A stretch of 60,663 nucleotides of DNA from Rhodospirillales bacterium (GTDB lineage Bacteria; Pseudomonadota; Alphaproteobacteria; BOG-932; Roseiterribacteraceae). A program made the translations under genes and the position numbers. Within the stretch, counting starts at the first letter, position 1, and every line of letters starts with the position of its first letter. The stretch is taken from positions 526 through 61,188 of the forward strand of contig PLTD01000038.1 in the NCBI GenBank assembly GCA_003165335.1. The letters run 5' to 3'. A model generated the notes under the pieces. It saw nothing but the letters and a program-made list of their open reading frames with translations. It had not been told where the DNA came from and did no database searches. This document shows, one piece after another, positions 12,285 to 19,018 of the stretch.

Positions 12285-12370
12285 GGGAATCCTTGCCAAC
12301 CAAGCGCTCGAATGGTTTCGTGCTAAAAAGGCAGCGCGACTTTGCGGGAAATATTGGGGAGGGCAGGGCA

Positions 12371-14194
12371 ATGAGATTGCTGGCGACGGTTGGACTATGT
12401 CTCGCAATATCGGCAGCCCATGCCGCTAACGCGCCGGACGGTGCGAAGCTCTTCGCCGACCGCTGCGCCGCCTGCCACGATCATCCCCAGGGTCGCATTC
12501 CGCCACGCTATATTCTGAACCGCCTGTGGCCCGATCAGGTTGTGACCGCCCTGACCGCCGGGCCGATGAAGCAGCAGGCAGCGGGCCTCAGCCAGGACGA
12601 TATCGGCGCACTGGTCTTCTTCCTGACTCGCAAGCAGGCCGGCGGCGCCGAGCCCGATCCCAATGCCAATCTCTGCACAACGCCTGCCGGGCCGATCGAC
12701 CTGGACGGGCCGCGCTGGAACGGTTGGGGCCGCGACATCGAGAATACCCGCTTCCAGCCCGACCCGGGCATTGCCGCCCAGGACGTGCCGCGGCTCAAGG
12801 TCAAATGGGCCTTCGCCTATCCGGGCGGCGAGACGGTGGGCCAGCCGGTGATCGTCGGCGACAGGCTGTTCGTCAGCAGCGTCAATGGCCGCATCTTTTC
12901 CCTCGACGCCAAGACCGGCTGCACCTATTGGAGCTTCAAGGCCGAGGCCCCGGTCAAGGGGGCGATCACCATCGGCGCGCGTATCGGGAAAGGGCCTGCA
13001 GCTGCAGCCTATTTCGCCGACATGGATGCATTCATCTATGCGATCGACGCCGAAACCGGGAAATTGATCTGGAAGGTCAAGGGCGATCCACACCCGATGG
13101 CTCAGATCCGCGGCTCAGTAAAGCTCTATCGCGGACGGCTTTATGTCCCTATCTCCTCGGGTGAGGAGAATGCCAGCGCCGACCCAGCCTATCCCTGCTG
13201 CACTTTCCGCGGCGGTGTCGTCGCGATTGATGACGCGACGGGAAAGATTGTCTGGCGGGCCCACACGATTACTGAGAAGCCCAGGAAAATCGGCAAAAAT
13301 CCCGCTGGATCTCAGATTTACGGCCCGGCCGGCGCTTCGGTATGGAATTCGCCGACCATCGACGCTGAGCGGCGGCGGATCTATGTCGGCACGGGCAATT
13401 CCTACAGCCGGCTCGACAATCCTGCGACCGATTCCGTCATGGCCTTCGATCTCGATACCGGCAAGCGCATATGGTTTACCCAGGCGACCCAGCACGATAC
13501 CTGGGTCATCTGCACGGAGCCGGGAACGGGGAACTGCCCCGCGAAAATCGGCCCCGACTTCGATTTCGGCAGTTCGGTCGCGCTACGCACCGCCTCGAAC
13601 GGCAGGCAGGTGCTGCTGGCGGGGCAGAAAAGTGGCGCGGTCTACGGATTTGATCCCGAAGACGGCAAGATCCTTTGGCGGGTCAAGGCTGGCCTTGGCG
13701 GGGCCTTCGGCGGGATCGAGCATGGTGTCGCCGCCGAAGGCGACAAGCTCTATGTCCCTGTGTCGGATTTCACCCCGACCATCGCTGTCCCGGCCGATCA
13801 GTTGGTGCCGCATAAGGCGGGCGGTCTGTTGGCACTCGACATCACAACCGGCAAACAGCTTTGGCGCACCCCATCGCCCGAACCGGGTTGCGCCTGGGGA
13901 ACTGAGAACTGTTCCGCCGCGCAGGCGGCTTCGGCCGCGGTAATTCCCGGCATCGTCTTCTCCAGCGCCCTCGACGGGCATATCCGCGCCTATGCGTCCG
14001 ATACCGGCGCAATCGTTTGGGATTACGACACCGCCCACGGCTTCGACGGTGTCAACGGCGCCAAGGTCAACGGCGGCGCAATTTCAGGCTATGGACAGAC
14101 CATCGCCGGCGGCATGGTCTATGTGAACTCCGGCGGCGGCTATTTCGGCCCACCGGGCAACGCGCTCCTGGCCTTCACGGTGGACGGGAAGTAA
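12371..14194 (+). CDS. periplasmic cytochrome c-PQQ beta-propeller dehydrogenase (polyvinyl-alcohol-dehydrogenase-like)
   Basis: 607 residues. A signal peptide covers residues 1-19. A small cytochrome c domain follows with heme motif C32-A-A-C35-H36. A quinoprotein beta-propeller begins about residue 110 (RWNGWGRDIENTRFQ) and shows repeated W-motif segments such as DAKTGCTYW, DAETGKLIWK, DDATGKIVWR, DPEDGKILWR. The vicinal Cys pair in PAYPCCTFRG is characteristic of the polyvinyl-alcohol-dehydrogenase-like group. Start 12371 is chosen because it follows GGGGAGGGCAGGGCA and opens directly with the signal peptide; the frame is open further upstream to 12293. It likely oxidises an alcohol in the periplasm and passes electrons to its own heme. 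Confidence 0.85.
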   Translation: MRLLATVGLCLAISAAHAANAPDGAKLFADRCAACHDHPQGRIPPRYILNRLWPDQVVTALTAGPMKQQAAGLSQDDIGALVFFLTRKQAGGAEPDPNANLCTTPAGPIDLDGPRWNGWGRDIENTRFQPDPGIAAQDVPRLKVKWAFAYPGGETVGQPVIVGDRLFVSSVNGRIFSLDAKTGCTYWSFKAEAPVKGAITIGARIGKGPAAAAYFADMDAFIYAIDAETGKLIWKVKGDPHPMAQIRGSVKLYRGRLYVPISSGEENASADPAYPCCTFRGGVVAIDDATGKIVWRAHTITEKPRKIGKNPAGSQIYGPAGASVWNSPTIDAERRRIYVGTGNSYSRLDNPATDSVMAFDLDTGKRIWFTQATQHDTWVICTEPGTGNCPAKIGPDFDFGSSVALRTASNGRQVLLAGQKSGAVYGFDPEDGKILWRVKAGLGGAFGGIEHGVAAEGDKLYVPVSDFTPTIAVPADQLVPHKAGGLLALDITTGKQLWRTPSPEPGCAWGTENCSAAQAASAAVIPGIVFSSALDGHIRAYASDTGAIVWDYDTAHGFDGVNGAKVNGGAISGYGQTIAGGMVYVNSGGGYFGPPGNALLAFTVDGK

Positions 14195-14244: not shown

Positions 14245-14282
14245 TTGCTAGTTGCACCCTAAGTGTTATCATAAGTAACACT
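14245..14282 (+). promoter_or_regulatory. promoter with overlapping palindromic operator before the BlaI-type gene
   Basis: TTGCTA (14245-14250) and TATCAT (14267-14272) are spaced 16 nt apart, a credible -35/-10 pair. The -10 lies inside a dyad with perfect 7-bp arms, AGTGTTA (14262-14268) and TAACACT (14276-14282). BlaI/MecI repressors bind dyads over their own promoters, so this is the expected autoregulatory operator; its sequence differs from the staphylococcal TACA/TGTA box. Transcription would start close to 14279. Confidence 0.6.
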
Positions 14283-14285
14283 ACT

Positions 14286-14681
14286 ATGGATAGCGGACTC
14301 ATGGACGACAGCCTTCCCGATCTCGGCGATGTTCAGCGTGAGATTATGCATTTGGTCTGGGAGCATGGTCCCGTGAGCGCAGAGACCGTGCGGGAGCGGC
14401 TGGACCGCCCGCTTAAGGAATCCACTGTCCGGACGGTTCTACGGCGCCTGGAAGAAAAGGGTTACGTCACTCACAGGGTCGACGGGCGTACCTATATCTA
14501 CAAGGCGGCCGAGGCGCGGGAGCGGGTGGCTGCCAAGGCAGTGAAGCAGATCGTCGACTGGTTCTGCAACGGGTCGCTCGAAGAGGTGCTGTTGGGCATG
14601 GTCGACAGCAAGATACTGGACCGGGGGGAGTTGCAGGCGCTCGCCGACAAGATCGCCGATGCCAAGGGGAGGAAGACATGA
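14286..14681 (+). CDS. BlaI/MecI/CopY-family transcriptional repressor
   Basis: 131 residues. An N-terminal winged helix spans about 10-80 (LGDVQREIMHLVWEHGPVSAETVRERL, TVRTVLRRLEEKGYV, DGRTYIYKA), followed by a C-terminal dimerisation region ending in a penicillinase-repressor-like tail. Met6 at 14301 is an alternative start that fits family length and the predicted transcription start better. The stop overlaps the ATG of the BlaR1-like gene (ATGA), the standard coupling of repressor and receptor-protease. In known systems the activated receptor leads to repressor cleavage; the inducer here is unlikely to be a beta-lactam because the partner lacks that sensor. Confidence 0.9.
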   Translation: MDSGLMDDSLPDLGDVQREIMHLVWEHGPVSAETVRERLDRPLKESTVRTVLRRLEEKGYVTHRVDGRTYIYKAAEARERVAAKAVKQIVDWFCNGSLEEVLLGMVDSKILDRGELQALADKIADAKGRKT

Positions 14682-16720
14682 CGCTCTGCCTGTTTCTGGA
14701 ATCCGCGCTTCGCTCGCTCGTGCTCGGTGTCGTCATGTGGCTTGGCCTGAAAACCTTTCGAGTACGAAATCCTCAAGTTGAGCTCATGGCCTGGACTGTT
14801 GTCCTCGCCACCGCCCTGGCGATGCCGCTTCTGCTGCAAGTCGCGACGGTTTCGATCCCGCCTCGCATGTCAGTGCCGGCATCGGTCGCCAGTGTCATGA
14901 CGGCACAACCTGCGCCCGTGTCCTTCGAGGCGCCTTCGTCTTGGGTCGATCCCATCATGCCGCCACCGTCGCAAGCGGTGACGCCGCAGCCGTTCGATTG
15001 GGCGGCATGGGCCTGGGTGGGCTATCTGCTGATCACCGGCGTGCTGCTGCTCAGACTGTCGATCGGCGTCGCGATGACCTGGCGCCTGTCACGCACCGCC
15101 CGGCCGGTTCGGGAGGATTGGGCAGGCAACGCTGACGTTCGGATCTGCAATGAAATCGGTATGCCGGTCACCTTCGGGTGGGTCATCCTGCTGCCCGCCG
15201 ACTGCGCTGAATGGTCCGCGCTCAAGCGGCAGGCAGTGCTGTCGCATGAGCGATCCCATGTCGCGCGCGGCGACTACCTTGTGTTGCTGCTGGCCACTCT
15301 TCACCGCGCGCTGTTCTGGTTCAATCCGCTATCCTGGTGGCTGCTCAATCGCCTAGCCGTATTGATGGAATCCGCCAGCGACGATGCGGCGGTAGCGGCT
15401 TTGCGCGACCGTTTCTCTTATGCCGAAGTCCTGCTCGACATCGCTTCGTGCGGAGGCCGCCCGCCCGCCGGTGTCGCGATGGCTCGAGCGTCGACTGTAG
15501 CTGGCCGTGTCGCACGAATCCTGCGCGAAAACACGCTTCCGGTGAAGCTCGGATGGCAGGGGCGGGCGCTTGTGGCCGCGACCCTATTGCCGGTAACCGC
15601 TATGGCAGCAGTAACGATTACGCAATCAATGCCGACAGAGTCCCTCCAGTCCTTTGCCGAAGGGATGCCTGCGCTCAGCGCCGTCGAACTCGCTCCCGTT
15701 TCACTGGGGAACCTGGCGCCAAACTTGCTTGCACCGCCGCGCATGCAATACAGAGTTTTGCCGGTTGCTATAAAAGCTCAGGTAACTGTCGCCCCGATGC
15801 CGGCAACGATTCCTGCCGTGGCATCCTCAGATACGACAGACGCATCCTCTCAGCCCCCGGCGTCGGATGGCGCCAAGCCCGTGGATATGAGTGGGACATG
15901 GACCATGGTCTCGGGGGGCCTCGGCGTATCATGCACCTTTCAGCAGACCGGCAACACACTGGCTGGAACTTGTAAGACGCTCTCACAAGAAGGTCCTGTA
16001 AAGGGCTTGATCGATGGCCGAAAAGTCGAGTGGCGATGGCTCTTTAACGGCGGGAAAGTCGGTATTATCCACGATTTCAAGGTTGCGGAATATAAGGCTA
16101 CCTTGCTTCCGGACAACCGCCTGGAAGGCGGATATTACGTCTACAACACTTACGACAAATTCCATCCCAGCTTCGATTACAAAACTTCAATTCTTATCCC
16201 GCGGCCACCCGGGCGATATTTTATGGCGAAACACGCCGTTGCTCCGGTATCCGCGATACCGACACTGCCGGCGCAATCGGCCGCTGTTCAGGAACCTGCC
16301 GCGCGCCCCGTCGCCGCTGACGGAATCCAACCGGCAAATATGACCGGAACCTGGAGCATATTCGGAATCCCGCCGAACCAGAGATTGCGCAGCGACGTGG
16401 GGCCGCCCTTGCGGCCTTCCTACTGCTCCTTCCGGCAAACCGGTAACACGCTCAGCGGCACCTGCAAGAATAACTTTTTCGAAAACGCGGTGACCGGTTC
16501 GGTGACAGGCCGGACTGTTCATTTCGATTGGATATACTGGTTGGGATTGCACCCCAACGACAACCCGGCATTCACGCTCCGGCGTGCCTCGTTCGACGGA
16601 ACGATCGGCCCCGACAACGTTCTCCACGGCACATACAAGAACAGATTCGCCTACCGGCCCGAGCCGCGTACCCCAGGGGGAACCTTCTGGGCAGAAAAAC
16701 AGCCATCCGACCCGTCGTGA
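14678..16720 (+). CDS. BlaR1-like M56 membrane metallopeptidase with a duplicated novel sensor domain
   Basis: 680 residues. Transmembrane segments lie at about 5-25, 36-55, 108-135 and 290-312. The M56 zinc motif H190-E-R-S-H194 sits in the cytoplasmic loop between the third and fourth. Beyond residue 312 is a long exported part. It lacks the penicillin-binding transpeptidase domain of BlaR1/MecR1. Instead, two copies of a domain begin near Met404 and Met555. Each opens with M-S/T-G-T-W and has a conserved TGNTL(A/S)GTCK segment with two Cys 13 residues apart (C-T/S-F then GTC), probably a disulfide. Proline-rich linkers precede both copies. Overlap with the repressor gene supports a BlaI-BlaR-type pair responding to an unknown extracytoplasmic signal. 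Confidence 0.85.
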   Translation: MTLCLFLESALRSLVLGVVMWLGLKTFRVRNPQVELMAWTVVLATALAMPLLLQVATVSIPPRMSVPASVASVMTAQPAPVSFEAPSSWVDPIMPPPSQAVTPQPFDWAAWAWVGYLLITGVLLLRLSIGVAMTWRLSRTARPVREDWAGNADVRICNEIGMPVTFGWVILLPADCAEWSALKRQAVLSHERSHVARGDYLVLLLATLHRALFWFNPLSWWLLNRLAVLMESASDDAAVAALRDRFSYAEVLLDIASCGGRPPAGVAMARASTVAGRVARILRENTLPVKLGWQGRALVAATLLPVTAMAAVTITQSMPTESLQSFAEGMPALSAVELAPVSLGNLAPNLLAPPRMQYRVLPVAIKAQVTVAPMPATIPAVASSDTTDASSQPPASDGAKPVDMSGTWTMVSGGLGVSCTFQQTGNTLAGTCKTLSQEGPVKGLIDGRKVEWRWLFNGGKVGIIHDFKVAEYKATLLPDNRLEGGYYVYNTYDKFHPSFDYKTSILIPRPPGRYFMAKHAVAPVSAIPTLPAQSAAVQEPAARPVAADGIQPANMTGTWSIFGIPPNQRLRSDVGPPLRPSYCSFRQTGNTLSGTCKNNFFENAVTGSVTGRTVHFDWIYWLGLHPNDNPAFTLRRASFDGTIGPDNVLHGTYKNRFAYRPEPRTPGGTFWAEKQPSDPS

Positions 16721-16765: not shown

Positions 16766-19018
16766 CTAATTCCCGGCCAGCGTGCGTTTGAAAAACGCCA
16801 GATAGGTCTTCCACAACTGGACCGCCTTGGCCGGCGTCCTGACGCCGTGCCGCTCGCCCGGATAGAGCATCAGGTCAAACGGGATCGATTTGCTTTGCAG
16901 CTCGGCCATGATCCGGGTCGAGTTCTCGAAGACGACATTGTCGTCTGCCATGCCGTGCAACAACAGCAGGCGCGGCGCGCTCGGCTTGCCGAGTTCCGCC
17001 AACCGGGGCAGCAGAGCTGCCGCGTCGTAGGCGGCTCCGTCCTGCCGTGGGTCGCCCATATAGCGTTCTGTGTAATGCGTGTCGTACAGCCGCCAGTCAG
17101 ACGGTGGCCCGCCCGCTGCTCCAGCGCGAAAGCCTGAACCGGGCTCGGTCAGCAGGCGAATTGTCATGAACCCGCCATAGGACCAGCCCATGATGCCGAT
17201 CCGCTTGGGATCGACATAGGGCAGGGCGGCGAGGAATCGCTCGCCCAATATCTGATCCTTCACCTCAGGCCCGCCCAACTGCTTGTGGATCGGCGCTTCG
17301 AATTTCAGACCCCGATTCGATGAACCCCGATTGTCCAGCCTGAACAGCACAAACCCCGCCTGGGTCAGCAGCTGATCCCGCCCGTCGGCCCAGCTTTCGC
17401 TGACCTCTGATGCCAGCGGCCCGCCATATACGCTGACGATCGCGGGGTAGCGCCGCTTGGGGTCGAACCCATAAGGCTTGGTGATCGCATAATGCAGAAC
17501 CTGGCCGTCCTCGGCGATCAGCGTGCCGAACTCCGGATAGGTCTTGTGATCCAGATAGGCGAAATAGGGGTGGCTGGAATCCAGCCTGTTCTCATCGATC
17601 CACGACAGACGCTTCCCGTCGATGCCATAGAGCGCGGTCTGCCGCGGCGTGTGCGGGTCGCTATAGGCGCCGACAAAGCTGCCGCAGTCCTTGGCAAGCT
17701 CAATGGTCCACCAGCCATGGCCGGTGGTCATTTTTTTGGGCTCGCCCGCCTCACGATAGTTGACGGCGTAAAGATGCCGCTCCAATGGGCTGTCCTTTGA
17801 GGCGATGAAATAGAGAATGCCGCTTTCTTCATCGATTCCTGCGACCGCTCGTGCATGAAGTCCGGCCCCGCTTCCCTCGGCCAAAGGCCAGTCGCCGTGC
17901 GTGATCGGGCGGATCAGAGTGCCGTCTGCCTTATAGAGATACAGGTGGTGAAAGCCGGTGCGCTCGGACCCCCAGACGAAATCGCCGTTCTTCAGCGGCG
18001 TGAAATCGTCGTTGAGATTGATCCACGGGTTTTGCTGTTCGCTGACGATGATCTTGGCCGCCCCGGTTAGCGGATCGACCGCCAGCAGGTCGAGACCGGT
18101 CTGGTCTCGGCTTTCACGCTGGACATACAGCGTCTTGGAATCCTTCGACCAATCGACGCGTGAGAGATAGATATCTGCGTCTTGTCCAAGGTCCACCTTG
18201 ACCCTCGGGCCTCCGCCGGTCGCCGTCACATAAAGCTCGACGAGCGCGTTCGGCCGACCGGCGCGGGGATAGCGCTGACTGACGACGCTGACGCCCTCCG
18301 CCCCGATATCGAACCGCGGCACGATATCGACACCGGATTCATCGACACGGGTAAATGCGATCCGCTGGTCGTCCGGCGATGTCCAATAGCCGGTGAAGCG
18401 GTTCATTTCCTCTTGCGCGACGAACTCCGCCACGCCGTAAGAAACTGCATCCTTGCCGTCGGTGGTCAGTGCCGTGTCCTGGCCCGATTTAAGGTCGATC
18501 AGACGCAGATTTTGGTCGCGCACATAAGTAACGAAGCCGCCCTTTGGGCTGATCTTGGCATCGGTCGCGCCGCCGCCCGTGTTACCCAGCTTTTTGACCG
18601 CGCCCGTCTGTGCGTCGGCGAGATAGAGTTCGCCCGCCGCGGGGATCAGGATCGCCCTGCCTGCCTCATCCCAAATGTAGTCGGTGACGCCATGGTCGCC
18701 GGCGATGCGCTGCCTCTCGCGCCGGCCCTTTTCTGCTTCGCTTAAGCGCGCGCCCTTGGGCTCGACCACAGATCCCTCGATCAGCCGCCTTGCTTCGCCG
18801 CCTGAGATCGGCCTGATCCAAAGATCGAATGTGGTCTGGTCGTCCGGCTCGGCCTTCAAATAGGTGACGGCGCTGCCGTCGGGCGACAGTTGTACCCCGC
18901 GCGGGGCCGGCCCGTTTAACGACGGCGGTGCGAACACCCGCTCGACCGGCAGTTCCGCTGCCGTGGCGATGACGGAAATTGCGGCCAGCAGGCCGCCCAG
19001 CAAAACAGTCTTGATCAC
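16766..19018 (-). CDS. S9-family dipeptidyl peptidase IV-like peptidase
   Basis: 750 residues, exported (signal peptide 1-20). An N-terminal beta-propeller (about 25-480) is followed by an alpha/beta-hydrolase domain. The nucleophile elbow GWSYGGF puts Ser at 613. The Asp and His lie in LLLHGMADDNVVFENS and PGERHGVR near the end. The propeller has the FVAQEEMNRFTGYWTSPD segment with a Glu pair as in DPP-IV, where it anchors the substrate N-terminus. The start is GTG at 19018, 1 nt after the stop of the isomerase gene, so it is the last gene of a three-gene minus-strand operon. Probable role: release of Xaa-Pro or Xaa-Ala dipeptides in the periplasm. Confidence 0.9.
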   Translation of the reverse strand: MIKTVLLGGLLAAISVIATAAELPVERVFAPPSLNGPAPRGVQLSPDGSAVTYLKAEPDDQTTFDLWIRPISGGEARRLIEGSVVEPKGARLSEAEKGRRERQRIAGDHGVTDYIWDEAGRAILIPAAGELYLADAQTGAVKKLGNTGGGATDAKISPKGGFVTYVRDQNLRLIDLKSGQDTALTTDGKDAVSYGVAEFVAQEEMNRFTGYWTSPDDQRIAFTRVDESGVDIVPRFDIGAEGVSVVSQRYPRAGRPNALVELYVTATGGGPRVKVDLGQDADIYLSRVDWSKDSKTLYVQRESRDQTGLDLLAVDPLTGAAKIIVSEQQNPWINLNDDFTPLKNGDFVWGSERTGFHHLYLYKADGTLIRPITHGDWPLAEGSGAGLHARAVAGIDEESGILYFIASKDSPLERHLYAVNYREAGEPKKMTTGHGWWTIELAKDCGSFVGAYSDPHTPRQTALYGIDGKRLSWIDENRLDSSHPYFAYLDHKTYPEFGTLIAEDGQVLHYAITKPYGFDPKRRYPAIVSVYGGPLASEVSESWADGRDQLLTQAGFVLFRLDNRGSSNRGLKFEAPIHKQLGGPEVKDQILGERFLAALPYVDPKRIGIMGWSYGGFMTIRLLTEPGSGFRAGAAGGPPSDWRLYDTHYTERYMGDPRQDGAAYDAAALLPRLAELGKPSAPRLLLLHGMADDNVVFENSTRIMAELQSKSIPFDLMLYPGERHGVRTPAKAVQLWKTYLAFFKRTLAGN

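Follow-up and report, generated by a model that had tools for sequence, protein, structure and literature searches.

The exported transpeptidase-like domain of BlaR1/MecR1 binds β-lactams, and M56-BlaI systems have nearly always been described via antibiotic resistance. Here we analyzed a 60,663-nucleotide stretch of a Rhodospirillales contig (PLTD01000038.1), hereafter the window, in which a BlaI-type repressor gene is followed by the gene of an M56 membrane protease. We propose, at a probability of about 0.6, that the pair is a BlaR/BlaI-type one-step signalling operon in which the sensor was replaced by two disulfide-stabilised calycin barrels, D1 and D2, recruited from small exported proteins. 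BlaR1 itself combines HEXXH and EXXXD motifs with four helices and an exported C terminus (PMC9834060); the window locus is laid out as follows.

14245–14272, plus strand: sigma-70-like promoter TTGCTA-16-TATCAT of the blaI-blaR pair (consensus scan, 9/12 matches, TG before the -10 box; weak alone)
14262–14282, no strand: probable BlaI operator AGTGTTA-N7-TAACACT, a perfect inverted repeat overlapping the -10 box (core TGTTAYN5RTAACA, 14264–14280)
14286–14681, plus strand: BlaI/MecI-type winged-helix repressor (PF03965, phmmer to MecI)
14678–15625, plus strand: M56 metalloprotease core with four TM segments, residues 1–316 (Pfam PF05569, hydropathy)
15245–15259, plus strand: HERSH (HExxH) zinc motif, residues 190–194 (sequence)
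15368–15382, plus strand: ESASD (ExxxD) gluzincin motif, residues 231–235 (sequence; motif described for BlaR1 in PMC9834060)
15626–15874, plus strand: Pro/Ala-rich exported linker of 83 residues, 317–399, after TM4 (composition)
15875–16234, plus strand: repeat D1, predicted exported calycin-type barrel, residues 400–519, Cys419/Cys432 (AF2, Foldseek, homology to D2)
16235–16312, plus strand: linker between D1 and D2, residues 520–545 (composition)
16313–16717, plus strand: repeat D2, predicted exported calycin-type barrel, residues 546–680, Cys583/Cys596 (AF2, Foldseek)

The M56 protein is encoded by one uninterrupted frame of 680 aa (14678–16720), the start of which overlaps the upstream 131-aa ORF (14286–14681) by 4 bases, at the blaI stop codon. 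It matches PF05569 (Peptidase_M56) with 82.1 bits (E 5.3e-23; Pfam cut-off 31). Hydropathy analysis gave four peaks, at residues of about 9–29, 42–60, 114–132 and 297–315, and one weaker hydrophobic stretch at residues 201–219. The HERSH and ESASD motifs are both intact and are placed between peaks 3 and 4; H190, E191, H194, E231 and D235 are invariant in alignment A4. The four membrane helices and the M56 HERSH motif named by an earlier, sequence-only reading of this DNA were thus recovered. The topology that we infer has four TM segments, the protease between TM3 and TM4 and an exported C terminus, the latter presumably located in the periplasm. Taken together, these sequence features support the description of the product as a BlaR-type M56 membrane metalloprotease with a BlaI partner. 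One convergent gene of the DPP-IV/prolyl oligopeptidase type (16766–19018, minus strand) lies directly past the M56 gene, and the plus strand of the window carries no gene after it that could share the blaI-M56 operon.

The 131-aa upstream product is a Penicillinase_R/BlaI protein (PF03965, 103.2 bits; Pfam cut-off 22.6). Among solved structures, MecI and BlaI are closest to it (MecI 1sd6/1okr, E 2.4e-8 by phmmer), and a search of a defence library with it gave generic winged-helix matches only. Judged by similarity to its relatives, blaI may really begin at the ATG at 14301. A promoter had been named at 14245–14282; our scan of the region returned two sites versus 1.0 expected, so the site at 14245–14272 is weak by itself, and it is overlapped by the perfect inverted repeat at 14262–14282. 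In the 5.19 Mb assembly, AGTGTTA-N7-TAACACT has no other site with fewer than three mismatches. The core has one exact match here and one in the congener G001, each just 5′ of the orthologous blaI, and it is also present 5′ of blaI in an Acidobacterium locus (L004). Four related loci (L003, L010, L094 and L095) carry the sister operator form GCTAC-N5-GTAGC, seen by eye in L003 and L010. Because no second exact operator is present in the assembly, no output gene was identified; since mismatched sites are no commoner than a reversed control pattern, we do not claim a wider regulon. The operator arrangement fits an autorepressed operon and points to no further target. The partner protease would be expected to cleave the repressor by analogy with BlaR1. 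The bond that BlaR1/MecR1 cut in BlaI/MecI is Asn-Phe; at the aligned position, the window repressor has Gly-Met, which weighs against the proposed operon but may mean only a different cut site.

The exported part contains two repeats, which carry MxGTW at residues 404 and 555 and TGNTL[AS]GTCK at residues 424 and 588. Only four Cys are present in the whole exported part, one in-register pair per repeat. D1 and D2 are clearly homologous: BLASTP aligned them over 135 columns at 33% identity (E 2e-15), and their local alignment score is 139, whereas 2000 shuffles average 27.6 and never exceed 48. The two exported repeats starting near residues 404 and 555, with their motifs and Cys pairs, are therefore where they had been described. 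Sequence searches with D1 and D2 gave no match in PDB, Pfam, NCBIfam, plasmids or IMG/VR.

AF2 models of D1 and D2 were each built from the window's two repeats alone, and the five models vary, with pLDDT values of 49–76. Both are eight-stranded barrels in the models, with pLDDT of 74.2 and pTM of 0.68 for D1, and 75.6 and 0.71 for D2. The nearest PDB structures by Foldseek are avidins, FABPs, nitrobindin, lipocalin-like proteins and the Cap15 receptor, at a best E of 2.5e-3; no match fell below E 0.001, and no penicillin-binding protein is among the best 50 matches of either model. We assign D1 and D2, with moderate confidence, to eight-stranded antiparallel calycin-type barrels with the GxW in strand A. 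PF13944 (Calycin_like) picks up one distant relative at E 3.7e-4, which is under the family cut-off. By sequence, the last strands of the repeats, where calycins have an Arg/Lys packed on the GxW Trp, end in FMAKH and FWAEK. The proposal of a duplicated β domain holds in that the repeats are homologous and both models are all-β. In both models, the two Cys of each repeat lie in register on opposite sides of the hairpin between strands B and C (model residues 20/33 with the turn at 26–27 in D1; 42/55 with the turn at 48–49 in D2). As the Cys, going by strand numbering, face each other across this hairpin and the pair recurs in relatives, a disulfide within each repeat is likely, given an oxidising compartment; of the suggested disulfide stabilisation, the Cys pair stands and the bond itself is only probable.

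Calycin barrels are a well-known fold class, mostly of ligand binders, and neither a penicillin-binding fold nor a characterised sensor domain was met in the fold search of the exported part. The M56 core and the BlaI partner are as in BlaR1, which could suggest a β-lactam receptor with a strongly diverged penicillin-binding domain; nevertheless, SxxK is absent from residues 317–680, no transpeptidase or β-lactamase family of Pfam or NCBIfam matches the M56 protein at E up to 10, NCBIfam blaR1_generic reaches 33.4 bits versus a cut-off of 400 and covers the M56 part only, and the repeats are modelled as small all-β barrels. We rejected this extremely improbable candidate on the missing SxxK, the missing family match and the barrel fold; the claim that no penicillin-binding domain is present was upheld. 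Hardly more probable is an avidin-type biotin receptor. The best Foldseek matches of D2 are indeed streptavidins (E 2.5e-3, probability 1.00, TM 0.54–0.56 by query and 0.64–0.69 by target), but for D1, FABPs and an anti-sigma factor are as close as avidins. Furthermore, PF01382 is not matched even with E up to 10 allowed, bacterial avidins taken from other genomes within the class score 0.7% in hhalign, and the NxLGS loop that follows GxW in avidins (GxWxNxLGS) is kept neither in D1 (GTWTMVSGG) nor in D2 (GTWSIFGIP). The biotin receptor was rejected on these sequence grounds. Since the profile comparison with bacterial avidins fails, "avidin-like" describes the nearest shape of D2 only.

Relatives of D1 and D2 were found in small exported GxW proteins of ∼100 aa, which we collected by a profile enlarged step by step; hhalign between the two sets gives 97.5% (E 5.9e-12) with the Cys columns aligned. 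Two stand-alone copies are present in the bacterium's own genome (contigs C13 and C234), three in each of the congeners G001 and G002, and others across the class; one of the G002 copies is a 164-aa exported protein that is not fused to M56. Members of the family include L066, L076, L088–L091 and L019. In the Pfam and NCBIfam versions searched, this ∼100-residue exported family has no model. Single distant copies also occur at the C terminus of SelA-like PLP enzymes some 500 aa long (L069–L074 and L085–L087; for example L022:1342–2928, minus strand), where the one GxW barrel is without the Cys pair. At L028:7172–9923, a G002 stand-alone barrel gene follows a PQQ-dehydrogenase-like gene, and the BlaI-M56 pair of the window follows the gene of a cytochrome c/PQQ protein (12293–14194), which may be a coincidence. 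In overlapping samples of 385, 398, 289 and 133 genomes, the barrel-M56 fusion was found only in the protein of the window. The repeat is fused to M56 here, as the sequence-only reading had it, but it is not specific to receptors: the small exported proteins form a family to which it belongs.

Within the class, M56 cores of this subfamily are sporadic (7 of 385 genomes, E ≤ 1e-10), and their exported parts vary. The G001 orthologue (42% identity) has two DUF3471 stretches in place of the barrels, an M56 relative from the same family (G004) has a TonB_C domain in the exported position, and the Acidisphaera protein (L010) has three DUF3471; in further relatives the exported part is a coiled coil, as judged from repetitive charged sequence and not by a prediction program, or something else. 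On the tree of M56 cores, the window protein is placed among DUF3471, TonB, coiled-coil and unannotated rows (fork support 84/88); few branches are starred as well supported, so the domain swaps cannot be counted exactly. The exported part is thus readily exchanged, with protease, repressor and operator type being retained. Such exchange is widespread in the subfamily, and an exported part that does not bind penicillin is therefore common there. The earlier proposal of a new input class is overstated, as DUF3471, TonB_C, coiled coils and others swap in at the same site; by sequence, the tandem barrel would be a new variant within an M56 family of widely differing input parts, found in one genome only.

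The bacterium's own genome also carries a second BlaI-M56 pair (L024:1471–3495, contig C264), in which DUF3471 is followed by two ∼110-aa repeats starting with TPSPGTEA; segments similar to these repeats are present in two other M56 proteins, those of L093 and L095. The related loci suggest that the bacterium is an environmental member of the Alphaproteobacteria. In an Acetobacteraceae relative (L002:2191–3141), the exported C-terminal part has no Pfam match and its ending segment has two Cys. Against PDB sequences, the three DUF3471 domains of the Acidisphaera protein gave one marginal and meaningless match only, and no literature on barrel or DUF3471 domains of M56 proteins was found among openly licensed papers.

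In the one-step operon that we propose, BlaI bound to the operator over the -10 box would repress its own operon. Outside the inner membrane, a small molecule or partner would bind to the tandem barrels. As in BlaR1, the signal would then travel by way of the membrane helices and the long loop between TM2 and TM3 and reach the zinc protease in the cytoplasm; cleavage of BlaI by this protease would derepress the operon. The repressor is probably switched by some non-penicillin signal outside the cell, which D1 and D2 would sense. By analogy with other calycins, ligand binding by D1 and D2 is plausible. Only tentatively do we take one step further: the tandem barrel could be a true ligand receptor, a sensor of the soluble-carrier type for a small envelope or environmental molecule, with the stand-alone barrels of the genus binding the same ligand.

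The barrels might instead serve in anchoring, partner binding or stability, and the signal might enter elsewhere: by the TM2-TM3 loop, by the membrane or through another protein. The same entry routes are required in M56 proteins without a sensor domain, one of which, according to PMC9834060, is the M. tuberculosis BlaR1 homologue. The exported part also varies freely among close relatives, and its TonB_C and coiled-coil versions resemble binding parts more than ligand pockets. We nevertheless consider this explanation rather unlikely, as calycin barrels mostly bind ligands and the duplicated copies conserve Cys and Trp positions, which suggests that the fold has been maintained. Because the architecture is known from one genome, no conservation backs the fusion as functional, and stand-alone copies of the barrel are common within the genus; both points would suit a barrel gene that was joined to an M56 gene by chance and is decayed or without function. 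This is quite improbable: the 680-aa frame is unbroken, the catalytic motifs are intact, the operator is conserved with G001, and the fold and the Cys are kept at 33% identity, which indicates that the duplication is old and not a recent accident.

The proposed signalling operon with recruited barrels adds to the picture of one protease-repressor core with interchangeable exported parts, seen in the window protein and its relatives; therefore, the annotation "BlaR1 β-lactam sensor" would be misleading for this protein. The fusion to a signalling protease is also a clue that the exported barrel family binds something, which makes the function of the family testable.

Like the BlaR1/MecR1-BlaI/MecI systems of staphylococci and bacilli, the window system has an M56 gluzincin between TM3 and TM4, an exported C-terminal part, a BlaI-type repressor next door and an operator at its own promoter. 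Different from these systems, in which the exported part is a class-D β-lactamase-like domain, it has a tandem barrel; the N-F scissile bond of BlaI/MecI is not kept in its repressor, and no β-lactamase gene was identified as its target. The DUF3471 proteins (G001, Acidisphaera L010, Methylocapsa L003 and the bacterium's own second M56 protein) all share the M56 core and the BlaI partner, with one to three small exported domains after TM4, but DUF3471 is another sequence family and the Pfam scan gave no kinship to D1/D2. The G004 protein likewise has a related core and an adjoining BlaI, and differs in its TonB-like C-terminal domain. Avidin/streptavidin, FABPs and lipocalin-like proteins are alike in predicted fold, and avidins also in the GxW of the first strand, without sequence-level kinship of avidins to D1/D2. 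The small exported GxW barrels differ in being stand-alone domains of ∼100 residues after a signal peptide, without a membrane protease; they share with D1 and D2 the homologous barrel and the same Cys pair, and occur in the same genome and genus.
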